From an uncultured Spirochaetales bacterium (GTDB lineage Bacteria; Spirochaetota; Spirochaetia; Sphaerochaetales; Sphaerochaetaceae), in contig CALXXN010000001.1 in NCBI GenBank assembly GCA_944392695.1, positions 124,001 through 188,000 on the forward strand: DNA of 64,000 nucleotides. Reading direction: 5' to 3'. The translations under genes were made by a program, and so were the position numbers. Of the stretch, positions 6,445 through 54,182 are shown piece after piece. The notes beneath the pieces are model-generated. The model made no database searches, was not told the DNA's origin, and saw only the letters and a list, made by a program, of their open reading frames with translations. The first letter of the stretch is position 1. Every line of letters starts with the position of its first letter.

Positions 6445-7651
6445 GGGCCTTCTCGAGTCCCTCAAGACCCTTCTCCAGGAGTTCATCGCCACAACCGAAA
6501 TTGAAGCGCACATAGTCTGAGTAGGCGGAGCCGAACATCGAACCGTCGTTCATGCAGATCCCACCGCGGGCACCGAAGAAGGACGCCATGAGGTAGTCGT
6601 TGTGGCTGTACAGTCCAGGATTGGCTGCCTTGTCTGCTTCAACTGCGGCACGTATGGCTGAGCAGTCGATGAACGCGATGAATGAGGCATGTGGTGCACA
6701 GTAACGGAGTTCTGGACAGCGTTCCTTGATGAATGACCCGACCTTGGCTGACTTGGCTGCAAGAGCCTCACACAGCGCCTTGTTGTAGTCCAGGCCATCC
6801 TTGTATGCTGCTTCGGCCATGACAGCCGCACTGTAGCCGGGGCTTGATAGATAGAGGCGCTTCTGCACGCTTGTGTATTCCTCTTTCATCGCCTTGTCAC
6901 TGAAGAGGGCGAAGGCGCAGTGCTCTCCTGCGATGTTGAAACTCTTGGAAGCCGCACAGAAGGAGATGCATCTGGCTCCAATGGCCTCATTGGCCTTTAC
7001 CATGGGGATGTGCTTGTATCCAGGGTAGGCCATGTCGGAGTGGATCTCATCGCACAGCACGAGCTGTCCACGTTCCTTGGCCGTTTCCAGCACACATCCA
7101 AGTTCTTTCTGGCTGAACACGATCCCCGTAGGATTATGTGGTGAACAGAAGAGTATGGCCTGGCAGTCCTCATCAGCTTTCTTGAAGTCAGCGGGGTCGA
7201 AGACGAAGCCGTCACTGGTGCGTTTGAGGGGAAGTGGTACTATGACACGGCCGTTGGCTTCTATCATCTCGATGAAGGGATGGTAGCTTGGGTAGGGTAA
7301 CAGGATCCTGTCACCTGGCTTTGTGAAGATGTTCATGGCGAGTGAGATCGCATGGAGCATGCCTTGGGCGAAGGTCACATGGTCCTCGTCAAGGACCGTA
7401 TCATGTTTTTCCTTCATGAAGTCGGTGAAGAGGCTTGCCAGCCCGCTGTTGTCACGGTAGCCGATGACCCCGATGTCAGCTTCCCTATATAGTCCAGCCT
7501 TTATGCCTTCGAAGACACTGATGTCCATGTCTGCGACCCAGAATGGCAGGGCATCTGCGTTTCCGCACATGGCAAGCAGGTTCGCCTTGCTCCATTTCTC
7601 GCTCCTGTCGCCACTCCTGTCTGCTGAGTGGGTGAAGTCGTATGTGCTCAC
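6428..7651 (-). CDS. MalY/PatB-type PLP-dependent aminotransferase (probable C-S lyase)
   Basis: A 407-aa fold-type I PLP enzyme. The N-terminal block LPFWVADMDI and the lysine block AASKSFNIAG, whose lysine would form the Schiff base, are typical of the MalY/PatB subfamily. Members usually have cystathionine beta-lyase activity, making homocysteine, pyruvate and ammonia, and some also act as regulators. Translation most likely starts at the GTG at 7651, which has AGGAGG five bases upstream. A promoter sits at 7675-7703. Annotation as a generic class I/II aminotransferase is the conservative alternative; beta-lyase activity is inferred from the subfamily. Confidence 0.85.
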   Translation of the reverse strand: MSTYDFTHSADRSGDRSEKWSKANLLAMCGNADALPFWVADMDISVFEGIKAGLYREADIGVIGYRDNSGLASLFTDFMKEKHDTVLDEDHVTFAQGMLHAISLAMNIFTKPGDRILLPYPSYHPFIEMIEANGRVIVPLPLKRTSDGFVFDPADFKKADEDCQAILFCSPHNPTGIVFSQKELGCVLETAKERGQLVLCDEIHSDMAYPGYKHIPMVKANEAIGARCISFCAASKSFNIAGEHCAFALFSDKAMKEEYTSVQKRLYLSSPGYSAAVMAEAAYKDGLDYNKALCEALAAKSAKVGSFIKERCPELRYCAPHASFIAFIDCSAIRAAVEADKAANPGLYSHNDYLMASFFGARGGICMNDGSMFGSAYSDYVRFNFGCGDELLEKGLEGLEKALKTIR

Positions 7652-7674
7652 TTCGTCCTCCTTATGATGGCTGG

Positions 7675-7703
7675 ATCTTATCGCGATGGAGGGGTGGAGG
7701 CAA
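7675..7703 (-). promoter_or_regulatory. Predicted sigma-70 promoter of the MalY-like gene
   Basis: On the minus strand a TTGCCT -35 is followed after 17 bp by a TAAGAT -10. The -10 ends about 23 bases before the GTG start at 7651, leaving room for the AGGAGG ribosome site. Confidence 0.5.
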
Positions 7704-41670: not shown

Positions 41671-42414
41671 ATGGACAGGAATGAGAGCGCACCGGGGATC
41701 GTGATCAAGAGCGAGAGGTGGAAGGAAAGGGACCGCATGGCCACTGTCCTGAGTCCTGTCTGGGGCCTGCGCCGCATCAGGGTCTATGGAGCCCAGAAAA
41801 GCCGCAAGGCCATAAAGGCCCCGCTTTACACGGAGGCCGTCTTCCATGTTTACGAGAACAGGGAGAGGGGGCTGACAAGTCTTGTCGACCTTGACCTGAT
41901 CTCGATCCATGAGGCGGCCTTGGATGGACTTGGTCCTTCGTTCACCGCTGCCATGATGAGCGAGGTCGCCTTGGCAGGACATGGTGCTGATGGTCCTGCC
42001 ATGTTCCAGCTTTTCACCTCCTGCCTGGACGCGTTGGAGGATCACAGGTGGAGGCGTGTGGCCATACAGTTCGTCATCAGGGCGCTTGACAGCGCGGGCG
42101 TGGGGACGGACTATGAGAACTGTCCTGTCTGCTCAAGACCCTATCCTGATGACATGGTCCTGGGTTTCAACAGCCAGGTGTCCAGCCCTTGCTGCTGGGA
42201 CTGCGACAGTTTCCAAGGGACACTGATCCTGCCTCCATCTGCAAGGAGGTACATACATGACAGCCTGCACTGCGGCCTGGAACAGGCCTTGGCTTTCCAA
42301 GTGAGCCTCCTGATGGAGCAACGGCTCCTGCGCTACTCGCTCAGGCTGTGGTCAGCTGTCCAGCAGGTCACCCTCAACAGTGCCGACCTGCTGCTGTCGC
42401 TGGAGGATGATTGA
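41671..42414 (+). CDS. recO: DNA repair protein RecO
   Basis: A 247-aa RecO. The N-terminal OB-fold (GIVIKSERWKERDRMATVLSPVWGLRRIRVYGAQKSRKAI) precedes a helical part with a zinc site, seen as CPVCSRPY and CCWDC. RecO anneals SSB-coated strands and loads RecA with RecR. The start at ATG 41671 matches the usual RecO N-terminus, though no good ribosome site is visible. Its stop overlaps the recJ start by one base, giving a recO-recJ repair pair. Confidence 0.85.
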   Translation: MDRNESAPGIVIKSERWKERDRMATVLSPVWGLRRIRVYGAQKSRKAIKAPLYTEAVFHVYENRERGLTSLVDLDLISIHEAALDGLGPSFTAAMMSEVALAGHGADGPAMFQLFTSCLDALEDHRWRRVAIQFVIRALDSAGVGTDYENCPVCSRPYPDDMVLGFNSQVSSPCCWDCDSFQGTLILPPSARRYIHDSLHCGLEQALAFQVSLLMEQRLLRYSLRLWSAVQQVTLNSADLLLSLEDD

Positions 42415-44561
42415 TGAGAGATCTCAGATATAGCATGAAGCGTGTCGCTCCAGAGATCGTGCGCCGCTTCTGTGAACGCTACAAGACCGACCTGACCTGT
42501 GCGAACATATTCGCCAGGCGCTCGATAACAGCCCCTGGAGAGGTCCGTTATTATTTGGAGAATGGCCTGAACTGGCTCCATTCCCCCTTCCTCTTCAAGG
42601 ACATGGAGGAGGCGGTCGAGCGCATACTCGCCATCAAGGAGGAGGGTGGGCGCATTGTCATCTTCGGCGACCGTGATGCCGACGGGGTCACATCCTCGGC
42701 CCTGCTTGGGCTGGAGCTTGAGGGTATGGGCCTTGATGTCGTGACCATGCTTCCAGAGGGCGATGAACCATATGGCATATCGATGGACGCTGTGAAACGG
42801 ATTATCGATGTCGGCGCCAGCCTTGTCATCACTGTCGACAACGGGGTGGGGGCGGTTGATGAGGTGGCCGCCTTGAACGATGCGGGCATCGATGTGATCG
42901 TCACCGACCATCATATCGCGGGGGAGGAGCTTCCTGATGCCATCGCAATCATCGACCCAAAGGTGCCTGGCTGTGGCTATCCCTTTGAACACCTCGCAGG
43001 TTGCGGAGTGGCTTCCAAGCTTGTCTGGGCGCTGCGTTTCGCACAGACCCCCTTGTACAAGTCCCATGTCATACTCCTGCATGCCGAGCCTGGACCCGGG
43101 GAGGATACGACTACGATCGTCCAGGCAGTAGAGCTCTACAACCTCGTCGAGACCGACAGGGTCGTCGAAGAACTTCCAAATGGTGCTGTCGACTTCTCAA
43201 GGAGCCGCCTGGTGCGCCTCCTGACGCGAGGCCTCCCCATCATGGTCCTGGACAAGGATGTCGAACTCAGGCAGCTGCGCAAGGCCTTCGGTCCTGGTGT
43301 CGACATAAGCCTTGTCGACATGAGGAAGGAACTTGATGCGGTGATCCCCCGTTCCCGTGGCCGCAGCCTCTTCGAGCTGACGACTGAGAGCAGGGCCGCA
43401 CTCTATGCGGATGGTCATCCTGAGATCGAGGCCTTGCTGAGCCTCTTCACCTCATGTTGCATCTACAAGCACCCATCATTGAGCCGGGACTATGTGAAGA
43501 TGCTGGACCTGGTGGCAATAGGCACGGTCGCCGACATGATGCCGCTTGTTGATGAGAACCGCATACTGGTACGCTTGGGCTTGAAGGAGCTTGGCCGCAT
43601 GTCGAGGCCCTCCCTCATCCAGCTCCTGTCCGCACAGGGCCTTGCCAACCATCCCATAACGGCACATGACATCGCTTGGAACATCTCTCCTGTCATCAAC
43701 TCCGCAGGACGTCTGGGCTGTCCCTCTGTCGCGCTCTCACTCCTCAAGGCCACAGAGCCACAGGATTGTTATGACCTGACCCACAAGCTCCTGGACCTGA
43801 ACAAGGAACGCCAGAGGCTGGGGGACGATGCCTGGCAGGGTGCCCGTGGCAAGGCGAAGGAGTCACTTGAGTCCTTCGGTTCTAAGTTCATCCTCCTTGA
43901 CATCGACACCCCGCGTGGGCTGACAGGGGCCTTGGCGACACGTACGTTGAAGGAGAACCCCCAGGTTCCTGGGGTGGTCGTCCTGTCGGCAGAGGAGGAT
44001 GGACGTGTCAGCGCATCCATGCGTTCCAGGGGCAGCCTCAACTGCCGTGACTTCCTCTCCCTCCTGAAAGACCACATGTTGGATTTCGGAGGTCACAAGT
44101 ATGCAGGTGGTTTCTCGATGTCAGGAGCGTCCAAGGAGGCTTTCAAGGCCGGTCTCGAGGAAGAGGTCATGAAGATGGACTACAGCATCGAGGAAGAGGA
44201 GCTGGCTGTCGATAGCCTGGTCAGCGATGCTGACATGAATCTCAACCTGATCCGCGCAGTGGAACTCTTCGAGCCCTATGGTGAGGCGAACCCTCCCCTG
44301 GCCTTCATGCACAGTGGTGGCAAGGTCGTGGACATCATAACGCTTGGGGATGTCAGCAAGGGGAATATCAAGGTGAATGTGCAGATTGGGAATACTGTCT
44401 GGCCCTGTCTCTGGTGGGGTGCCCGCCTGGACCCTGGCTTCGACATCTCAATCGGTGACCGCCTGACTATGATCTTCAGGATGAACCGCAACTACTACCG
44501 TGGAGTCGGCAATGTCCAGCTGACCATACTCCAGGCAAAGAAGATGGAAGGTGATGCCTGA
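42414..44561 (+). CDS. recJ: Single-stranded-DNA-specific exonuclease RecJ
   Basis: A 715-aa RecJ, the 5'-3' single-strand exonuclease of the RecFOR pathway. The DHH domain includes FGDRDADG (D86, D88, D90), VDNGVG and TDHH (D165 H166 H167). The DHHA1 motif is GGHKYAGGFSM and an OB-fold follows. It is longer than the common 550-580 aa because of an insertion of about 100 residues around 215-325. GGAGG lies seven bases before the ATG at 42414. The TOTE-type helicase gene begins inside its final bases. Confidence 0.93.
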   Translation: MRDLRYSMKRVAPEIVRRFCERYKTDLTCANIFARRSITAPGEVRYYLENGLNWLHSPFLFKDMEEAVERILAIKEEGGRIVIFGDRDADGVTSSALLGLELEGMGLDVVTMLPEGDEPYGISMDAVKRIIDVGASLVITVDNGVGAVDEVAALNDAGIDVIVTDHHIAGEELPDAIAIIDPKVPGCGYPFEHLAGCGVASKLVWALRFAQTPLYKSHVILLHAEPGPGEDTTTIVQAVELYNLVETDRVVEELPNGAVDFSRSRLVRLLTRGLPIMVLDKDVELRQLRKAFGPGVDISLVDMRKELDAVIPRSRGRSLFELTTESRAALYADGHPEIEALLSLFTSCCIYKHPSLSRDYVKMLDLVAIGTVADMMPLVDENRILVRLGLKELGRMSRPSLIQLLSAQGLANHPITAHDIAWNISPVINSAGRLGCPSVALSLLKATEPQDCYDLTHKLLDLNKERQRLGDDAWQGARGKAKESLESFGSKFILLDIDTPRGLTGALATRTLKENPQVPGVVVLSAEEDGRVSASMRSRGSLNCRDFLSLLKDHMLDFGGHKYAGGFSMSGASKEAFKAGLEEEVMKMDYSIEEEELAVDSLVSDADMNLNLIRAVELFEPYGEANPPLAFMHSGGKVVDIITLGDVSKGNIKVNVQIGNTVWPCLWWGARLDPGFDISIGDRLTMIFRMNRNYYRGVGNVQLTILQAKKMEGDA

Positions 44562-47500
44562 GCCTGTACGCTTTGTAGACAGCATGACGCTTGTCGGAGG
44601 ACAAGATGGGCAGATGTCGCCTTCGGAACTCCAAGTTGCCATCAAAAGCATCGATGAGCAGCTAGATGAGCTGATTGCGAAAACCGAGGCCCTCAAGGAG
44701 GAGAGGGCCGTATTGGCCGCACAGCTTGAAGCGCAATCAAAGCGATACAGTATTCCTCCATTGGAACTCGGAACATCTCGTATCAGTGAATATGCATCAT
44801 TGGAGGAACAGGCAGGGTTCCTCATTGATTTATTCTCACCAAGACGTGATGTCCATGCTGTGAGGCGGATATATTACTCAAGTAAGAAGGATGCATGGTG
44901 TACTTCGTACTATCCACCATGTGAAAACTACAAAAGGCGTGGGTGTGCGAAGGCTGTTTCACTTGGGGCTAGGACGATTAGTGATGCTTCTCCATGCTCG
45001 AAATGCACGATGAAGGCCTATCAACCACTTGATGTGGACAAAATCATCAACAAGCATCTTGAGAACACTGATAATGATGGTGTGGGGGCCATAGGCATTT
45101 ATCCATTGAAGGATGGTAATCTGACCCGCTTCATCCTGATCGACCTTGATGAGAAGAACTGGGAAAAGGACGCCAGGGCCATATTGCATACTGCGAGGAA
45201 CATGGGTGTCAGCATGGCCTGGGAGCGTAGTTTCAGTGGTCGAGGTGCTCATTTGTGGGTTTTCTTCAGTGAGGATGTACCTGTTGCCGAGGCAAGACGG
45301 CTCATGTTCATCATCATAGACAAGGCGCGGGAGTCACACTCTGGACTCAGCATTTCTTCTTATGACCGCTTGATCCCGTCTCAGGATGGTTTGGTGAATG
45401 GAGGAATCGGGTCATTGGTCCTCATGCCATTTGTCCTGTCAGCCGCAGGCCGTTCTTGTACAGTCTTCCTCGATGATAACGGTGTTGCTTATCCGCTTTA
45501 CCGGCAGTTTCCGTACCTTTCATCTGTACACAGACATGACGCTGTAGAGCTTAAGCGCTTGATTGCCACAAATGAAAACAAGATTGGATTCAAATTGGAA
45601 GCACTCGACAAGGACATGCTTAATCCAAGTTGGGCCAAGCGTCTACCAAAGCTTACAAAGGAGGATGTGAAGGCCCCTGTGGTGCTTTATCTGTCAACAG
45701 GAGTGAGTGTTGATAAGAAGGCCTTGTCCGAGAAGGCCATCGAAGGTTTGCGCCGTCTTGCCTTGGTATCCAATCCAGAGCACTACAAAGAACTTGCACG
45801 CATGGATGGCCGTGCCCATACTCCTGCTTGCATTCCTGTAAGTCGGGAAAACCACAGGGTGTTATGCCTGCCAAGAGCCCTGCGCCCTGTTATGGAAGCT
45901 TATTTGTCTGCTTCCGGAATACCGTATACGATTGAGGATCACCGCCATACAACAAGAGGACTTGATGCTACTTTCAAGGCGGTCCTCCGCAAAGACCAGG
46001 TCCTTGCTTTTGATGCCATGATGGATAATGAAATCGGGGTACTTGCCTTGCCTCCTGGTTCTGGTAAGACAGTCATAGCCCTTGCGATTGCTGCAGCAAG
46101 GGCCGAAGCAACACTGGTCATAACTCCTTCAGACTTGGTTCCCCAGTGGAAAGAACGGGCTGTCGAGATGCTTGAAATCCACAATCAGCCAAGCCTTGGT
46201 AAGTGGAAACGCAAGAGTGGATCCTATCCAGTTGGGGAGTTCGTGGGGTCTAAGAAACATCTTTATGGTGTTTTCGATATCGCAAGCATTGAGACGCTTG
46301 CAAGCAGGGTGAAGGATGGCAAGGACCTTGAACTACCATCCTATGGCCTTGTCATTGTCGACGAATGCCATGGCATCGCTGCAAGCAACTTCCGCAATGT
46401 GATGTCAGTGCTCAATTCGAAATATGTATATGGCCTGACAGCCACTGTAAAACGTGCAGATGGGCTTGAACGACTGATGCATGTTGAGATTGGCCCTGTT
46501 GTCTACTCTATGGAAAGTGCAGCACTTGCAAGAGAGAGGGGTATCATGCAGTACTTCGTACCTCATTATCTTGAAACAGCCCCTCCAGGTAAATCTGGTC
46601 ACATACGCTTCTCGGAACTCTTGAACCAACTTGCGGAAGATTGGACAAGAAATGCACAGATTGCCGATGATATTGCAGAGGCCTACCACGATGGACGGAA
46701 CATCATCGTCTTCACAAGACGAGTGAAGCAGAACAATGCCATAGCGCAATGCCTTGATGCCCGTCTTATTCCATGTATCGTGATGGAGTCTGGGATGAGA
46801 GACTCGGAAAGGGCAGGATTGCTGGATGATGTCAGACGCAAGGAACATGCTCCTGTAATCATCGCAACAGACCAGCTATTGGGAGAAGGAGTGGACATTC
46901 CCAATATGGACACCCTTTTCCTGGCTTCTCCTTATATGCAGGAACGGGTCATGGTCCAGTGTGCTGGTCGTATTGCCAGGCAATGGGAAGGGAAGCAGGA
47001 GACCAGGATTCATGATTATGTCGACTTCCTCATTCCTTGTATGGATCATATGTTCTCGAGGCGTGTAAGGGAATACAGGCGCATGGGGTATATTGAGAAA
47101 GGTGGAGTAGGGCGGCCTTCTGTCAGGCAGCTTTATCATGAGGATGATTTCATAGAGTGTCTTATAGCTGATTTATCAAAAGCGATTTCCTCAATAGTGA
47201 TTTCATCACCTTTCCCCGTTGCATCAAAGTCCTCTGCGCGGATTCTTGAAAGTGCCGTTGAGGCGATGGAACGTGGTGTCGAATTCGAACTCCGTTTGTC
47301 ATACTCGCGATTAAGCGAAGCAGCGGCCGCCCGTACCAAGGCTCTTTTACTGCGATTGGGTATCAAGGCAGTCGAATTGGAACATGCCCTTGCTTTCGTG
47401 GTGATTGATGAGAGCATAAGCTGGTATGGGGAACTTGATGTCATGAGCCTAAGTCAGAAAAATACCGCAACAGCAGTGCATGGTGGTGTCCTCAGAATAG

Positions 47501-47562
47501 TTGACAACCGCCCCGCTAAGGCATTGCTGGAAGATGATAATCTCCTTGTGAGAGGCTGCTGA
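44554..47562 (+). CDS. TOTE-type primase-SF2 helicase with C-terminal PLD-like domain
   Basis: A 1002-aa protein. Residues ~25-65 are a coiled coil. An archaeo-eukaryotic primase-like domain of the TOTE conflict-system type follows: YYPPCENYKRRGCAKA, a CSKC pair, D197 and D199 in LIDLDEK, H233 in FSGRGAHLW, and YDRLIPSQDGLVNGGIGSLV. An SF2 helicase comes next, with PPGSGKT near 499-505, DECH at 603-606, GLTATVKR, and QCAGRIARQ near 800. The C-terminus resembles a phospholipase-D nuclease, but the HKD-type motif has become LAFVVIDESISWYGELDV, lacking the catalytic His and Lys. TOTE proteins are linked to mobile-element conflict; the exact role is unknown. It overlaps recJ by eight bases. ATG 44614, after GGAGG, is an alternative start. 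The sequence is AT-richer than recJ, suggesting transfer. Confidence 0.8.
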   Translation: MPEPVRFVDSMTLVGGQDGQMSPSELQVAIKSIDEQLDELIAKTEALKEERAVLAAQLEAQSKRYSIPPLELGTSRISEYASLEEQAGFLIDLFSPRRDVHAVRRIYYSSKKDAWCTSYYPPCENYKRRGCAKAVSLGARTISDASPCSKCTMKAYQPLDVDKIINKHLENTDNDGVGAIGIYPLKDGNLTRFILIDLDEKNWEKDARAILHTARNMGVSMAWERSFSGRGAHLWVFFSEDVPVAEARRLMFIIIDKARESHSGLSISSYDRLIPSQDGLVNGGIGSLVLMPFVLSAAGRSCTVFLDDNGVAYPLYRQFPYLSSVHRHDAVELKRLIATNENKIGFKLEALDKDMLNPSWAKRLPKLTKEDVKAPVVLYLSTGVSVDKKALSEKAIEGLRRLALVSNPEHYKELARMDGRAHTPACIPVSRENHRVLCLPRALRPVMEAYLSASGIPYTIEDHRHTTRGLDATFKAVLRKDQVLAFDAMMDNEIGVLALPPGSGKTVIALAIAAARAEATLVITPSDLVPQWKERAVEMLEIHNQPSLGKWKRKSGSYPVGEFVGSKKHLYGVFDIASIETLASRVKDGKDLELPSYGLVIVDECHGIAASNFRNVMSVLNSKYVYGLTATVKRADGLERLMHVEIGPVVYSMESAALARERGIMQYFVPHYLETAPPGKSGHIRFSELLNQLAEDWTRNAQIADDIAEAYHDGRNIIVFTRRVKQNNAIAQCLDARLIPCIVMESGMRDSERAGLLDDVRRKEHAPVIIATDQLLGEGVDIPNMDTLFLASPYMQERVMVQCAGRIARQWEGKQETRIHDYVDFLIPCMDHMFSRRVREYRRMGYIEKGGVGRPSVRQLYHEDDFIECLIADLSKAISSIVISSPFPVASKSSARILESAVEAMERGVEFELRLSYSRLSEAAAARTKALLLRLGIKAVELEHALAFVVIDESISWYGELDVMSLSQKNTATAVHGGVLRIVDNRPAKALLEDDNLLVRGC

Positions 47563-47783
47563 GGATGATTGCAGGGTTGCAGGAAGTGATTCAATGACAT
47601 GGATTTCCTACGGGATGTGTTGACAGTGGCTTTATCCATCTACGTGTCCTGGCATTCCATTGAATTTGAGCTAGATGTAGCAGACAGAAGTCCCTCCTGC
47701 CCATGGATTCCTATATACATTAGGATGTCCTGCTGTTACACTGTATCCAATAGGTGGGAATACGATGATGCGTAGGAGAGGGC

Positions 47784-48611
47784 ATGGATATCATCAAGCA
47801 GAAAGGCTTGAGCCTGAGCGACGCCGATAGGTGTAAACTTGACAGCTTCATAGAAGCGAACTGTAGCGCATATTACATAGTCGATTTCCTAAGGATCACT
47901 TCTGGTAATGTTGATGACGCTATCTCCCTGTACTTCCTTGACGAGGACCTACGGGCTGTGGTTTTGAAATACATCCTCCGGTTGGAGGTCCAGATGAAGA
48001 AGGACTTCATAAATTGTGTGTTTGAAGAAACCAATGACGAAAGTTTTTGGAACAACAGAACATACTACACAAGTCAATTCGTCAAAGCGAAAAAAGGAGT
48101 TGATAGAAGTCAGTTTGATATCGCGGTCACGGAAGTCAATGCCAGAATGCGTGTCATGCAGTTTTCAATCGCAAGTGATAGGAACCATCAGGCCTTCTAT
48201 GCGATGTCTCTCGGAACATTTTCAAAGCTGTATTCTGGAATGTTCTTGAGGTACCATTTCGACTTCACTTCGAAGTACTCATTTCGGAATCCTTGTTCTG
48301 TAGATGTGTTGCGTCGTTACTTTGATACAGTCCGTATAATCCGTAATCGTTGTTGTCATAGCAATCATATGATTTCAGCGAAATTGAAGAATGCGTTGAT
48401 TTTCAATGTTTCTGTATTGCCTGGTTATTTTGGAGATACTGGGAATGAGTTTGAGAAAACACTGTACTTCATTTATTCCCGCTTGGATAACAAGGAGTCA
48501 TTCAAAGACGATGTTATCGGACTATTGAAGGAGAATACTTCATGCTGGCGCCCATATTGCAACAAGCACCTGTTACATCCTGCATTTGCGGAAGATATCG
48601 ATATATGGTGA
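47784..48611 (+). CDS. Abi-family (AbiD/F-like, HEPN-type) protein
   Basis: A 275-aa protein similar in layout to the Abi_2 family of abortive-infection proteins. It opens like that family (KGLSLSDADRCKLDSFIEANCSAYYIVDFLR) and carries RNRCCH at residues 187-192, the R-x4-H signature of HEPN RNases, in the usual place (IIRNRCCHSNHMI). If active it would cut RNA and stop growth after phage infection. AGGAG lies six bases before the ATG. It follows the TOTE-type gene after 221 bp, is strongly AT-rich, and was probably acquired horizontally. The Abi assignment rests on motif position rather than overall similarity. Confidence 0.7.
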   Translation: MDIIKQKGLSLSDADRCKLDSFIEANCSAYYIVDFLRITSGNVDDAISLYFLDEDLRAVVLKYILRLEVQMKKDFINCVFEETNDESFWNNRTYYTSQFVKAKKGVDRSQFDIAVTEVNARMRVMQFSIASDRNHQAFYAMSLGTFSKLYSGMFLRYHFDFTSKYSFRNPCSVDVLRRYFDTVRIIRNRCCHSNHMISAKLKNALIFNVSVLPGYFGDTGNEFEKTLYFIYSRLDNKESFKDDVIGLLKENTSCWRPYCNKHLLHPAFAEDIDIW

Positions 48612-48639
48612 AAAAGATAATGTCTATTTCACTTTCCCA

Positions 48640-48668
48640 TTGACAAGTTGTTTTTTACAAACTAGATT
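48640..48668 (+). promoter_or_regulatory. Near-consensus promoter in the Abi-hydrolase gap
   Basis: A perfect TTGACA, 17 bp, and TAGATT. The -10 lies in the first copy of a direct repeat ACTAGAT (48661-48667 and 48672-48678). Confidence 0.6.
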
Positions 48669-48674
48669 TGTACT

Positions 48675-48732
48675 AGATGGTGGGGACGATAGATGCCCCC
48701 AGCCGCCGGCCCGTGGAGTCGGCTTTTCTTTT
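48675..48732 (+). ncRNA. Candidate small RNA of about 58 nt with terminal hairpin
   Basis: A near-consensus promoter ends at 48668, so transcription should begin near 48675. TGGGG (48681-48685) can pair with CCCCA (48697-48701), and AGCCG (48701-48705) pairs with CGGCT (48720-48724) directly before TTTTCTTTT. There is no open frame of note inside. The second hairpin may simply terminate the upstream Abi gene, but that would not explain the promoter. The family was not recognised. Confidence 0.4.
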
Positions 48733-48797
48733 ATCCGCCATATGTTTTGATTGTTCCATTTCCCGTGCTATGATGAAGCTACACAGAGGAGGCGCAT

Positions 48798-49352
48798 ATG
48801 AAGAAGGCGGTATTCTTCCCCGGTACTGGTTACACCTGCAAGGAGGACCTCTTCCAGCGCATTGGACAGGAATTGGGACAAGCAGGCTGGTCTGTCGTTC
48901 CACTTGATTGGCAGGCCATCCCTTTCAAAGCCATTGATACAATCACTGAAGCCTGCGACATGGCTGTAGGTTTTGCCATATGCGCTTTGGAAGGTGAGGG
49001 GCTTGAGGACTGCGATGATCTCCTCTTCGTCTCCAAGAGCCTTGGTTGCATAAGCGCATTGGAATACAGCCAGCTCCTTGGTCTTGAAGCACGTCATGTG
49101 CTGCTGACACCGACCCCGGATGCCCTTGCTTTGGTCAAGACATCAACTGAAGTGGCCTGTGCTGTCATTGGAGATGAAGATCCTTTGATGGATAGTTCCT
49201 CATTGGTCTCTTTTGGTGAGGAGCATGGCTTCCCTGTATTCGTGGTGAAGGGATCGGGGCATGCGTTGAAGCATGAGGACCCCGCGATAACTGAATCCAT
49301 CACTTCAAGGGTTGTTTCATTTGCAAGCAAGGAACTTGGCCTTCATGCTTGA
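48798..49352 (+). CDS. Small alpha/beta-hydrolase-fold protein
   Basis: A 184-aa protein with a minimal alpha/beta-hydrolase layout: AVFFPGTGYTCKEDLF as first strand and oxyanion loop, LLFVSKSLGC with the nucleophile serine in an S-x-S-x-G elbow, GDEDPLMD with the acid, and VVKGSGHALKHED with the histidine. It lacks a lid domain. Similar small hydrolases are often annotated as esterases or left unnamed. GAGGAGG precedes the ATG. It lies after the candidate small RNA and terminator hairpin, so it is probably transcribed separately from the Abi gene; a link to defence is only positional. Confidence 0.75.
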   Translation: MKKAVFFPGTGYTCKEDLFQRIGQELGQAGWSVVPLDWQAIPFKAIDTITEACDMAVGFAICALEGEGLEDCDDLLFVSKSLGCISALEYSQLLGLEARHVLLTPTPDALALVKTSTEVACAVIGDEDPLMDSSSLVSFGEEHGFPVFVVKGSGHALKHEDPAITESITSRVVSFASKELGLHA

Positions 49353-49917
49353 TGATGCAATGGGCCTGCCTGGGGTTATGTGAGGAATGGTAAGTGCATG
49401 ATTGCCTGTGATTGACAGGGTTGCGAAGATGGTGCCTTGAAAACGGTTTTCGGAAGATTCAGTGGTGAAAACCACTAAAGTCTTCAAAGCCTGGAGTTCA
49501 CTTTCATTTCAATCATCAGGGACCTCATTTCATGATTCCATGTGGAGTATGCCAACGAAACAGGACTCAGGAACGAAGGCATTCGCGCAGTATGCAGTTG
49601 CAAGGTCATCTGGAGCGTGTCCAGATGTTTCCGTCATGCTATCGTCTTCGACATGTCCGCAACAATATCATCGGCCCTCAACGCTTGAGTGAAGACCGGC
49701 ATCGATAATGACGAGATACCTGATGGGATATGCGTCGGCATTTCCAATGTCTTGCTCAGGGAGGCTTTGGCTTGGCCATGCTCAGCCCGAGACCGAGGTG
49801 AGGCGAATATCAAGTAAAAGTGTTGCCCCCCCCATGAAAAGTGCTAGGGTCTTATTAGTGGTAGGGATAGATGGATTTCTTACATTTTAATCTCTACCCT
49901 GAGTTTTGGAGGTTAAA
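49353..49917. other. 565-bp stretch without a confident gene
   Basis: Short minus-strand frames between about 49530 and 49800 have plausible codon use (one ends in LRADDIVADMSKTIA, another reads TSGHAPDDLATAY in the next frame). They look like a decayed gene, but I recognise no family. A 6-bp stem with a GAAA loop lies at 49461-49476 (AGTGGT-GAAA-ACCACT). Near the right end is the C8 tract and probable promoter of the GLUG lipoprotein gene. Confidence 0.4.
49826..49833. repeat. Poly-C tract (C8) in a lipoprotein promoter region
   Basis: Eight consecutive C residues lie 84 bp upstream of the GLUG lipoprotein start. A possible promoter TTGCCC (49823-49828), 16 bp, TAGGGT (49845-49850) would include the tract in its -35 and spacer, so slippage would change the spacing. 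Confidence 0.45.
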
Positions 49918-51705
49918 ATGTTTTCTAGATTAAAGTATTGTTCTGCAATACTTCTTATGGGACTAGCTGTTACAGTCCTCTTTTCCTGTAGCGGAGAAAA
50001 CCCGGTCAGGCCACCAGCTTCAATTGATGATGTGGAGTTGACCGGACGCTGGGAAGCCGAGCCGGTGATTCCTGGTTCTGTTGAATACTATTGGTTTGAG
50101 TTCAGAGATGATGGCTCGATGCAATACGGGGAAAAGGGTGTAAGTGAAATAATCGGCGACAAAACATATGATGGTACTTATGCTGTAGAAGGGAACATGA
50201 TTACAATCAGTCTTCCCACGTATACAACACCCGAACTCGCAAATGCAAATGTTGAATATGAAATCACTTCGGATGGACAGTTCTGGTTCCCAAACAAGAA
50301 TGATGGTAGCTGGGGAAGTGTCCAATTCTTTGAAAAGTTCATTAAAGTAGGACAGCCTGGCCCAGGAGACCCATCCACGCCTGACGAGCCTGGTTCGGAA
50401 AAGCTTGCTGTTACTTTGATTATTGATGGATATGCCTTCCCTGATGGCGAAAACTCCAAAAGCATCCAGGTAAACCATGGCAGCCTGCTTGAAGAAATCC
50501 AAATTCCAGAAACAGGCCTTGTCTTTGGAGAAACCAGTACGTGGGGATGGTACGAAGAAGGCGCTGATGCACCATTTACAGGAAACATCAATTCCAACCT
50601 GACTCTTTATTTGAAATGGTCAGGTGGTGTAACGACAGAAATTGATGGTGTGAAGACGTACCTCGTCAAAGATGCCGATGGCCTTTATGCTTGGAGGAAT
50701 GAAGCGGTTGACAATCCAACCATAGGTTGTTTGCTTCTTGCAAACATAGCACTGCCAGTGGAAGCTGTAGATGTCAGTAATTGGGATAGTCCTTTCAACA
50801 ATACTAATATCCAGTTCCGTGGGGTGTTTGAAGGAAATGGATATACAATCTCCAATATCCAGAACCTGGATTCAGGACGTGGCCTGATTGGTGCGGTTGC
50901 AGAAGAAGGAATTGTGCAAAACGTATCATTGGAGAATGCCACAATAATTGGTCTTGCATATACAGCAGGAATAGCTAGCTATAATAACGGAACGATTCGG
51001 AATTGCAGCTTTTCTGGTTTTGTACAGTCAACCTTCCATTCAGGAGGAATAGCTGGACTCAATGGAGAGACTGGGATAATTGAAGGCTGTATAGTGGATG
51101 CGAACCTATCGATGGAATCAGAGACTGGATATACTGGTGCAAGTCTTGGAGGAATAGTTGCAGATAACTATGGAGGTATTATCATCGGGTGTTCTTCTAG
51201 TGGCGAAGTCATCAGCAATGCAATATACACAGATGATTACATTGGTGGAGTTGTTGGAGAGAACAAGAATAATGGTGTAGTCATCGCATGTGTTTCAGAT
51301 GCCGCTGTTGGATACAATAGGAAGCACGACAAAGATCTTACTAGGATTGGTGGATTATGTGGTCGCAACTTAGATGGGGCAGTAGTCCAATCATGCTATT
51401 TCATCGGGGAAATTGATGCTCCATTTGGTTCTGGTGGAGCCCACCTTCTTGGATCCATACTCTCTAATGGTGAAATACGTAACTGTTTCTGGGAAGGTGG
51501 CTCAACATATATTGGCTATCCTTATCAGCCAAATATAATTGAAGATGTCGGACGTGTTCCAGAGAAACTTCCATGGAGCGATGCAACTGGCTTGCTTAAT
51601 GAAGGCATAGAAGCATGGAATAATTCAAATCCAAATCATCCATGCAACTTTGAGTTTGTTCAGCAAAGTCTGCTTTCCAGACCAGATCTTACAGCAAAAG
51701 AATGA
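49918..51705 (+). CDS. Surface lipoprotein with InlB-like and GLUG repeats
   Basis: A 595-aa predicted lipoprotein with lipobox LFSC (C24). It begins with a small beta domain (LTGRWEAEPVIPGSVEYYWFEFRDDG), then a proline-rich linker near residue 145 (PGPGDPSTPDEPG). An InlB B-repeat-like domain follows (YAFPDGENSKSIQVNHG to NLTLYLKW). The last third consists of GLUG-type repeats such as GLIGAVAEEGIVQNVSLENA, TAGIASYNNGTIRNCSFSG and SGGIAGLNGETGIIEGC, as found in bacterial adhesins. It is probably exposed on the cell surface. GGAGG lies five bases before the ATG at 49918. It is AT-rich relative to the flanking core genes. Confidence 0.78.
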   Translation: MFSRLKYCSAILLMGLAVTVLFSCSGENPVRPPASIDDVELTGRWEAEPVIPGSVEYYWFEFRDDGSMQYGEKGVSEIIGDKTYDGTYAVEGNMITISLPTYTTPELANANVEYEITSDGQFWFPNKNDGSWGSVQFFEKFIKVGQPGPGDPSTPDEPGSEKLAVTLIIDGYAFPDGENSKSIQVNHGSLLEEIQIPETGLVFGETSTWGWYEEGADAPFTGNINSNLTLYLKWSGGVTTEIDGVKTYLVKDADGLYAWRNEAVDNPTIGCLLLANIALPVEAVDVSNWDSPFNNTNIQFRGVFEGNGYTISNIQNLDSGRGLIGAVAEEGIVQNVSLENATIIGLAYTAGIASYNNGTIRNCSFSGFVQSTFHSGGIAGLNGETGIIEGCIVDANLSMESETGYTGASLGGIVADNYGGIIIGCSSSGEVISNAIYTDDYIGGVVGENKNNGVVIACVSDAAVGYNRKHDKDLTRIGGLCGRNLDGAVVQSCYFIGEIDAPFGSGGAHLLGSILSNGEIRNCFWEGGSTYIGYPYQPNIIEDVGRVPEKLPWSDATGLLNEGIEAWNNSNPNHPCNFEFVQQSLLSRPDLTAKE

Positions 51706-52063
51706 TGGTTTGAAAGGAAGACTTGATGATGAAATGAATCTTGGAGCACAAGGTTTGAGAAAAACGTAGGATATAAGCGCCCTTGGCTACTGTAGGAGGT
51801 AAGCATGGAGGGCGCTTGATTTGTATCCGCCGGTCTTATTCTTCATGCCCTGCCGACCGTCCTCCTTTGCGGTCAAGCAGATGCCATGATGATGAAGTAT
51901 GACCAGGCCTGTCCTAAGCACAGTGTTGGCCACTGTGCCTTGCCATGATATGTCGCTGCTTCTTTGATATGTGGATCTCGGAAGAGGGCAGGAAGGACCT
52001 GTGAGACAAGGTGTGTGAATTGGAAATGCTGCTGCAGGGATGGAGATGCAGTAGACCAGATCC
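51706..52063. other. 358-bp intergenic stretch without a confident gene
   Basis: Between the GLUG lipoprotein and the end of the patatin gene. A hairpin lies at 51775-51817. A minus-strand frame covers much of the rest, but its proline- and histidine-rich translation shows no family features. A short plus-strand frame near 51825-51955 is also unconvincing. Confidence 0.4.
51775..51817 (+). other. Hairpin enclosing a ribosome site and a four-codon frame
   Basis: AAGCGCCCT (51775-51783) and AGGGCGCTT (51809-51817) are perfect 9-bp arms. The loop holds AGGAGG and an ATG at 51805, which would encode Met-Glu-Gly-Ala followed by TGA. It could be a terminator of the upstream gene or a remnant of a lost gene's start. 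Confidence 0.35.
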
Positions 52064-53215
52064 TCAGGTCCCTTCAATCAGAGGAACCTCTTCAGCAGGC
52101 GCAAGGGCCACCTGGGTGAAGTCCTCCCTCTGGCTGAGGAGGCTTGCGTAGGCGGTGAGGGCCTCCTTGTTGTCCTCCCACATCTTGTCCCCGCCTTCCA
52201 GCAACAGATTGAGGCTGCCAGGCCTGGTGTCGTCAAGCTTGATCTTCTCCTTCGTGACCTGGGAGTAGACCCGTGTCAATGAGACATCCTCGAGCGATGA
52301 GAGGACCATGTGCGTCAGGCTGTACTGGGCGTTTGGGTAGATCCTCATCACAGGTTCGGCCCAGCCTGCGATCCCTCCTGGTGCCTCCTTGGGGTTGAAA
52401 CGGTAAGGGGGACGTGCCGTGGAGAGCGAGAGCAGGTGGAAGCGCCTGCAATCAGGATAGAGCCTGCGGGCTTCGGCGTAAGCCAGCAAGGCAGGGTCGT
52501 TGGCAATCATGCCACCATCAAGCAAGGATGCTTCCCTTCCTTCCGGTGAGACTGTATGGAGGGGTTGAAAGTAGAGTGGGGCGGCTGCTGATGCCCGGGC
52601 CGCCTGGCTTGCCGCCATGTCCTTCCACTGGTTGTAGGATGAGAGCATGACACCCTGTCCCTCCCGGCTGTCATAGCTGACCAGCATCGTCGGGACGAGG
52701 CAGTCCGATAGCTTGGCATCCTTATAGGTCTTGTCGAGCACATCCTCGAGCGAGGCTGAGTCATAGCGGCTTCCAAAGACAGGTCCCAGCAGTCTCATCT
52801 TCGGACTGAAGATGCCTGCGGCGTTGTCGAGGTAGAGCTTGGCAAAGAGCTGTGGATCCGCCGCCCTCTTGATATACCCGATTGTCATTGTGCCATGTTT
52901 GAAGAATCCTGACTTGAAATCCTCTGTCACAGGAATGGCAGGGCCTTCCTCATTTGCCAGCCCAATGTCGCAAAGCGTCAGTCCAAGCGAGAGCAGCGCC
53001 CCTGTCGAGGTGCCTGCGACGAGGTCGAAGTGTGAATAGAGAGGCTTATCGTCTCCAAGCGACTTCAAGTGGTCCGAGAGGCGGGCGAGTACGACAGCCG
53101 GGACGATGCCCCGGATCCCTCCTCCATCGATTGAGAGTATGAAGCGTTCCTGTACACCCTGCGCATCCTTCTGCCGTTTTCCCGCGAGGGCTTTGAATAT
53201 CGTGCCAACGTTCAT
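52064..53215 (-). CDS. Patatin-like phospholipase
   Basis: A 383-aa patatin-family lipid hydrolase with a Ser-Asp dyad. Visible motifs are the oxyanion loop SIDGGGIRGIVPA, the nucleophile elbow AGTSTGALLSLG (GxSxG) and the DGG box LLDGGMIANDP. It lacks a signal peptide, so it acts from the cytoplasm on membrane lipids or acyl stores. The plant-type patatin layout is shared with CapV effectors of CBASS, but no cyclase gene lies nearby. The ATG at 53215 has an AGGA site; it diverges from the radical SAM gene with a 28-bp gap, so upstream starts would overlap that gene's ribosome site. Confidence 0.9.
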   Translation of the reverse strand: MNVGTIFKALAGKRQKDAQGVQERFILSIDGGGIRGIVPAVVLARLSDHLKSLGDDKPLYSHFDLVAGTSTGALLSLGLTLCDIGLANEEGPAIPVTEDFKSGFFKHGTMTIGYIKRAADPQLFAKLYLDNAAGIFSPKMRLLGPVFGSRYDSASLEDVLDKTYKDAKLSDCLVPTMLVSYDSREGQGVMLSSYNQWKDMAASQAARASAAAPLYFQPLHTVSPEGREASLLDGGMIANDPALLAYAEARRLYPDCRRFHLLSLSTARPPYRFNPKEAPGGIAGWAEPVMRIYPNAQYSLTHMVLSSLEDVSLTRVYSQVTKEKIKLDDTRPGSLNLLLEGGDKMWEDNKEALTAYASLLSQREDFTQVALAPAEEVPLIEGT

Positions 53216-53243
53216 GTAGTATCCTAATTTGGAGGAAGATCCG

Positions 53244-54182
53244 ATGTATGACAAGTGCCTCTTGTGCCCAAACCGCTGTGCTGTGGACCGTCATGTGCGT
53301 CCTGGGGCCTGCGGTCAGAGGGATGTTGTGAAGCTTGCCTGGGCGGGACTGCACCGTGGCGAGGAGCCACCTATCACAGGGGAGCATGGTTCTGGCATGC
53401 TCTTCTTCACCGGCTGCCCACTTGCCTGCAGGTACTGCCAGAACCAGCAGATCTCATCCAATGATGACTGTGCCTATGGCATCGAGGTGTCTGATGAGGA
53501 GCTTGCCCAGCTGATGCTCTCCTTGCAGGATGCAGGGGCCGCGACACTCAACCTGGTGACCGGCACCCACTTCATCCCATCGATAGCCGCCGCCCTTGAT
53601 ATCGCAAAGGGCAGGGGTTTCCACCTTCCTGTCGTCTGGAACTCTTCGGGTTATGAATCCTTGGAAGGCCTGACCTTGATCGACCCCTATGTCGATATCT
53701 ACCTTGTCGATGTGAAGACCTATGACAGGCAGGTCGCCCGCACCTTCTGCGGCAAGGAGCGCTATGTCGATGCGATTGATGCCGTGATGGACTTCATCAT
53801 ATCACATAAGAATGTGACAGACATGGATGCGATGCGCGGCACGATCGTGCGTCATCTGGTCTTCCCTGGTGCGCTTGATGCGACGAAGGTCTTCCTGCGC
53901 CGCTTCGCCCAGTACTACAAGGACCATTGCTGGCTGAGCCTGATGGTCCAGTTCATACCACCAAATGAAGCTGATAGGATCTTTCCTCCCATCACAGACG
54001 ATGAATATGATGAGCTGGTGGATTTTGTCGATGAGCTGGGCATAGACGATGGATTCATCCAGGAGAAGAGTGATGATGACATACTCTGGGTCCCGGATTT
54101 CCGAGAGGATGTACCCTTCCCAGCGCCCTTCGCCGATGCCCTTCCTGCCTTTCTTGAGTTGAAGAGGCAGCGTCTCAGCTGA
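53244..54182 (+). CDS. PflX-like radical SAM protein
   Basis: A 312-aa radical SAM protein of the PflX (COG1313) group, related to pyruvate formate-lyase activases. The cluster motif is CPLACRYC (CxxxCxxC), preceded by FFTG. The N-terminus has its own cysteine set CLLCPNRCAVDR and GACGQR, typical of this group. Downstream blocks NLVTGTHFIPSI and VVWNSSGYE are conserved in PflX proteins. The target is not established in the family; a glycyl-radical enzyme is only a guess. GGAGGA is seven bases before the ATG at 53244. The stop overlaps the convergent UMP kinase gene by eight bases. Confidence 0.88.
   Translation: MYDKCLLCPNRCAVDRHVRPGACGQRDVVKLAWAGLHRGEEPPITGEHGSGMLFFTGCPLACRYCQNQQISSNDDCAYGIEVSDEELAQLMLSLQDAGAATLNLVTGTHFIPSIAAALDIAKGRGFHLPVVWNSSGYESLEGLTLIDPYVDIYLVDVKTYDRQVARTFCGKERYVDAIDAVMDFIISHKNVTDMDAMRGTIVRHLVFPGALDATKVFLRRFAQYYKDHCWLSLMVQFIPPNEADRIFPPITDDEYDELVDFVDELGIDDGFIQEKSDDDILWVPDFREDVPFPAPFADALPAFLELKRQRLS

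Follow-up and report, generated by a model that had tools for sequence, protein, structure and literature searches.

A conserved small RNA element behind an Abi_2-family HEPN gene in an accessory patch of a Spirochaetales genome

In type III toxin-antitoxin systems (ToxIN, CptIN, TenpIN), a small structured RNA lies beside a ribonuclease-type toxin gene. The AbiD/F HEPN toxins are the presumed ancestral group of Cas13. A described member with an RNA of its own is AbiF-RCd22 of C. difficile phage phiC2 and the R20291 prophage; its abiF RNA (Rfam RF03085) lies upstream in the leader, is ~100-130 nt long, contains two RF03085 motifs and is read through into the gene (PMC12373285). TOTE conflict systems are named for their TPR, OB, TBP and Effector components, according to PMC12458937, which cites Aravind et al. 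2022. Here we compare with these systems a locus of an uncultured Spirochaetales bacterium, in which what merits pursuit is a conserved small RNA, predicted behind an Abi_2 gene and not described before.

The DNA analysed is a 64-kb stretch (the window) on the 308-kb contig C1; the draft genome totals 2.31 Mb in 39 contigs and is 96.5% complete. Positions 44554-52063 form a block of four genes (Table 1) with a GC content of 46.9%, whereas 163 other 7.5-kb stretches of the window have a mean of 55.8% (sd 1.0, minimum 53.7%). GC steps down sharply at the 3′ end of recJ and returns between 51.7 and 52.1 kb. The left edge coincides exactly with recJ, whose stop codon (44559-44561) is overlapped by the first gene of the block (ATG at 44554), and the right edge lies within 51705-52063. 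The GC3 values of the four genes (0.485, 0.496, 0.519 and 0.350, against 0.674 ± 0.065 for the host) and their CAI (0.54-0.63 against 0.72) are off the host range; recO, recJ, patatin and PflX are host-like in both. These outliers, with the patchy distribution of the helicase and Abi_2 genes described below, bear out the initial annotation in two respects, that the block has AT-richer codons than its flanks and that it carries foreign accessory and defence content. GC is also uneven from gene to gene (0.49, 0.415, 0.51 and 0.44 for genes 1-4), which makes a single arrival unlikely and suggests more than one. As an accessory patch the island itself is ordinary, but its history had to be corrected.

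Table 1. Positions and supporting evidence for the block and its two flanking genes (window coordinates)
Feature	Position	Strand	Evidence
recJ, left flank, host-like	42411..44561	+	TIGR00644 E 7e-136; 54-68% identity to genus orthologues
Gene 1: AEP primase-like domain + XPB/RAD25-type SF2 helicase + degenerate PLD-like C-terminus	44554..47562	+	PF22548, ResIII, Helicase_C
Gene 2: Abi_2/AbiD-F family HEPN protein	47784..48611	+	PF07751 2e-14; PADLOC AbiD 5e-15
Sigma70-like promoter TTGACA-17-TAGATT for the small RNA (predicted)	48640..48668	+	Matched in place and spacing in G250 and G332; less well formed in G346 and G238
Conserved two-hairpin small RNA element ending in an intrinsic terminator (predicted)	48675..48733	+	Copies in four further genomes, 79-81% identical as DNA; model R1; pairs kept
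Gene 3: small alpha/beta-hydrolase-like ORF, family uncertain	48798..49352	+	27% to a Butyrivibrio plasmid protein, E 2e-4
Non-coding spacer	49353..49905		Nothing recognisable
Gene 4: GLUG-motif surface lipoprotein	49906..51705	+	PF07581 6e-9; lowest GC3 in the block (0.35)
Patatin-like phospholipase, right flank, genus gene, host-like	52064..53254	-	PF01734; 48-63% identity in 12 congeners, beside PflX

The product of gene 2 belongs to the Abi_2 domain family (PF07751, E 2.1e-14) and carries the HEPN motif R-N-x3-H as RNRCCH at residues 187-192, of which the R, the N, the second C and the H are invariant across aligned relatives. Close relatives were found only in G250 (57%) and G332 (54%). 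Searches with Abi_2 gave no match among PDB sequences or in plasmids and phages, and the single-sequence AlphaFold model had a low pLDDT (36).

Starting 64 nt past the Abi_2 stop codon, we found an element of 57-59 nt with two hairpins and a T-run. A DNA search of 139 family genomes revealed copies in G346, G250, G332 and G238 (E 6e-8 to 4e-5; noise floor ~1e-2, except for one partial promoter-side match at 3e-3). Covariance model R1 then recovered a sixth copy, in G046 (E 1.6e-9), which was outside its training set and has a decayed terminator hairpin. There was one strong copy per genome, always 3′ of, and on the same strand as, an attached defence-type gene. All 3/3 known members of the Abi_2 subfamily, that of the source genome included, are followed by the element, which in G250 and G332 stands ~100 nt past the Abi_2 relative; the unit common to these two genomes begins upstream of Abi_2 and ends precisely where the RNA does. 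An AlbA_2/Schlafen-type gene precedes it in G046 and, as a remnant, in G346. In G238 it comes after a DUF3800 remnant, and a frameshifted Abi_2-like sequence, recognised by eye and giving no Pfam match, lies 290-340 nt further on.

A comparison of the source genome with G250 gives 80% identity for the RNA but only 60% for the Abi_2 coding DNA, and the Abi_2 leader aligns poorly. The pairing is maintained in 98% of pair cells; the stem of the source RNA has one additional G on one arm, one additional C on the other, and an A-U to G-C change. Covariation is thin, with one compensatory pair among four distinct sequences, a number that 123/500 shuffles reach. Conservation of the element is seen in the four independent DNA matches, the copy found by the model, the closer identity of the RNA than of the coding DNA, the shared promoter spacing and the kept pairs. 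Five loci beyond the training set were inspected among the class-wide model matches; apart from G046, the weak matches that were aligned (E 6e-6 to 1e-2) appear to be terminator look-alikes or coding sequence. An apparent viral copy (L243) was a chance match within a DNA methyltransferase gene. A search of 80 helicase loci from other phyla, like the plasmid and phage searches, gave no copy.

Like AbiF-RCd22, the window combines an Abi_2/AbiD-F HEPN protein bearing R-N-x3-H with a small RNA beside the gene that has a sigma70-type promoter and an intrinsic terminator. The RNA here, however, is downstream, measures ~57 nt and is unrelated in sequence. RF03085 gave no match at E<=1 in 44400-52300, nor at E<=10 in 48600-48760, whereas the same search detected it in phage phiC2 (E 1.5e-5), and the RNA is therefore not an abiF RNA of this family. 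The juxtaposition of a small structured RNA and a ribonuclease-type toxin gene is shared with type III toxin-antitoxin systems, but there is no upstream repeat array here and the protein is HEPN, not of the ToxN fold. A type I antisense RNA was rejected because duplex energies with the 5′ region of the Abi_2 mRNA were no better than those of shuffled RNA in three genomes. The element was not an integron cassette with multiple attC copies and R boxes either, since each genome has one strong copy and no GTTRRRY was seen by eye.

Gene 1 encodes an AEP-TOTE domain (PF22548, E 7.8e-50) joined to a helicase. The catalytic motifs of both domains (DxD 198/200, H234, GKT, DECH and QxxGRxxR) are invariant in five relatives, and HxKx4D is absent from the PLD-like C-terminus in every sequence that extends that far. 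The closest solved structures are XPB helicases; for the AEP part they are chains 7nqd/7nqf, labelled 'TPR_REGION domain-containing protein', which we take to be CRISPR-associated primase-polymerases. PADLOC PrimPol matches gene 1 at 6e-46, in agreement with this reading. The primase domain is common to gene 1 and TOTE systems, but in the latter it is accompanied by linked TPR, OB/cold-shock and TBP genes. We found none of these at 44.5-52 kb, and none was frequent beside helicase relatives. Since the partners that define TOTE are missing, gene 1 is not a TOTE system despite its AEP domain, and its earlier label 'TOTE-type' should give way to stand-alone AEP primase-XPB-type helicase. The helicase is present in 18/139 family genomes (E<=1e-40), and relatives occur in many phyla and on 96 plasmids, of which 40 are conjugative, which marks it as a mobile gene of defence islands. 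Because its ATG overlaps the recJ stop codon, recJ and the helicase gene are possibly co-translated, judging from the sequence.

The helicase and Abi_2 had been proposed to form one defence unit. They are on the same strand with 221 bp between them, and no promoter or terminator is predicted in the gap, as would suit co-transcription. We ran Pfam on the nearest genes of helicase relatives (78 upstream, 78 downstream) and listed every family with at least two members, so that Abi_2 occurs at most once (<=1/78) on each side. Furthermore, G250 and G332, which hold the close Abi_2 relatives, are both absent from the 18 helicase genomes, and the two genes differ in GC. A single co-transcribed unit is thus very improbable, and we rejected it on the census and the separate genome distributions; the pairing is a coincidence of neighbourhood. 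Partners of the helicase vary by genome (AbiL, AlbA_2/Schlafen, AAA_14, AbiEii), with Abi_2 rare if ever; in the census SLFN_AlbA_2 was found in 6 upstream neighbours, and AAA_14/DUF4143, AbiEii and RloB were also present.

The other part of the proposal was an insertion directly at the recJ 3′ end, at a defence and surface hot spot. We compared the surroundings of recJ and patatin in 14 congeners, and the two genes were neighbours in none of them. Downstream of recJ there is a conserved convergent gene (9/14) or a conserved three-gene run (5/14), which does not support a hot spot there. The patatin-PflX-kinase genes are located elsewhere, and patatin, where present, is mostly flanked by a conserved block. 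In the source genome, the usual convergent gene of recJ is on contig C2 and the usual neighbour of patatin on C6. With synteny lost on both sides and the usual neighbours on these contigs, the block sits at a rearrangement junction, and a simple insertion at recJ is rejected, as the flanks are no ancestral pair split by it. Of the earlier placement, the left edge at the recJ stop codon stands. That edge and the sharp GC steps would also suit a single genomic island put in there by an integrative element, but this is unlikely: we found no integrase, no tRNA and no att, flanking or direct repeat at the block ends, both flanks are parted from their usual partners, recJ is directly followed by patatin in 0/14 congeners, and GC is heterogeneous among the genes. 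Neither a transposase for the block nor a rearrangement remnant or repeat at its edges was found. An assembly chimera at the edges might be suspected in a draft of 39 contigs. It would require two separate mis-joins within one 308-kb contig, however, and the overlap of recJ and the helicase gene is a clean 8-nt start-stop coupling; we regard this explanation as scarcely credible.

Our best explanation, which we put at an even chance, is a composite, horizontally acquired patch at a rearrangement junction of a Sphaerochaetaceae chromosome, with two independent defence-type genes and an RNA that is part of the Abi_2 cassette and checks the toxin. It is based on the GC and codon outliers, the patchy distribution of the helicase and Abi_2, the lack of linkage between recJ and patatin in the genus, and the conservation of the RNA and its linkage to Abi_2 in 3/3 close relatives. 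The two defence-type genes probably arrived separately. The stand-alone AEP primase-XPB helicase would recognise or remodel invading DNA or stalled forks, and Abi_2 would be a HEPN ribonuclease whose cassette ends in the ~57-nt RNA with its own predicted promoter and terminator. Most likely, the RNA belongs to this cassette and would restrain the HEPN toxin as abiF RNAs do, from a separate downstream gene. An antitoxin role is plausible, and the RNA may control the Abi_2 gene. Several points count against this explanation: the RNA is shared with genes other than Abi_2, as it also follows AlbA_2 genes and a DUF3800 remnant; the covariation signal is thin; no transposase or integrase was found that would explain the arrival; and the draft genome may be mis-joined at the junction.

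The RNA could instead be a generic mobile or cassette module (promoter-sRNA-terminator) joined 3′ of various defence genes with no specific tie to Abi_2; it could mark where a cassette ends or be an sRNA belonging to the carrier element. We consider this somewhat improbable, though a serious competitor. The range of genes to which the RNA is attached, always on the same strand (Abi_2 in three cases, AlbA_2 in two, a DUF3800 remnant in one), speaks for it, as do a promoter-to-tail segment 89% identical between G250 and G346 despite different upstream genes and a shared 20-nt tail past the terminator. However, a single strong copy per genome is unlike integron attC arrays or MITEs, GTTRRRY/RYYYAAC boxes were not seen within the module, and the unit transferred in G250 and G332 includes Abi_2 and stops at the RNA's exact end. 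A bolder and rather doubtful extension of the antitoxin explanation is that a short RNA antitoxin, encoded downstream under its own promoter and representing a new family, controls a branch of the AbiD/F HEPN toxins, and that AlbA_2/Schlafen-type effectors have adopted this RNA too. The RNA may be a partner that effectors have passed among themselves, or else a generic module of cassettes. Should it prove to be an antitoxin, control of AbiD/F-type HEPN nucleases by RNA would be wider than the single known abiF motif, and the RNA position could switch from leader to trailer, which bears on the origin of guide-RNA use by Cas13. If it is a generic module, it would point to a portable format in which gut-type spirochaetes carry single defence genes as cassettes.

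In the rest of the block, the initial annotation's small hydrolase fared less well than its helicase with AEP-TOTE domain, Abi_2 and GLUG lipoprotein, which were all recovered. Although gene 3 is reminiscent of a small alpha/beta hydrolase, nothing in Pfam was above cut-off (best Ser_hydrolase, E=0.25), no family could be assigned at any cut-off, and its single-sequence AlphaFold model had a low pLDDT of 42. The supposed decayed stretch behind it is non-coding, with no recognisable gene remnant. On the right, patatin is a conserved genus gene adjoining PflX, outside the island; it resembles CBASS phospholipase effectors (NF041079, below cut-off). A GLUG lipoprotein comes after Abi_2 in both the window and G250, where a 12-repeat GLUG + Big_2 lipoprotein (L186:1068-2972) is encoded on the same strand as the Abi_2 relative and 4.5 kb downstream; this could be chance. 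G250 and G238 also share dispersed repeats of ~105 bp, 90-92% identical (L186:1683-1787 and 2647-2753, reverse-complement coordinates; L274), possibly small mobile elements. In G046 (L273, around 7332-7700), the AlbA_2 gene and the RNA are immediately 5′ of an apparent tmRNA with smpB nearby, as judged by eye. The tmRNA gene is a common integration site.

Among the closest helicase relatives, the commonest neighbour is AbiL (AbiLi/AbiLii, RloA/RloB-like): AbiL-type genes adjoin the helicase in G012, which also has IetAS, in G022 and, as fragments, in G007, are adjacent to it in G170 and lie within a few kb in G345. AbiL is not in the block; an AbiLi-like gene is on contig C2 of the source genome. 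There, ~10 kb from the gene that follows recJ in relatives, we observed a second AT-rich two-gene cassette (L100:4403-6356; G000 contig C2, ~166.9-168.9 kb; GC 0.44 in a setting of 0.58), composed of an AbiLi-like AAA_21 ATPase and a RiboL-PSP-HEPN protein. AlbA_2/Schlafen genes lie directly upstream of AEP-helicase relatives in L113, L109, L152, L169, L208, L209 and L081, in many cases with an overlap or a gap of no more than a few hundred bp, and are a better candidate for a recurrent pair with the helicase than Abi_2. In L081, from G052, the AEP-helicase relative is situated between two CRISPR-like repeat arrays, recognised by eye from repeated peptide frames.
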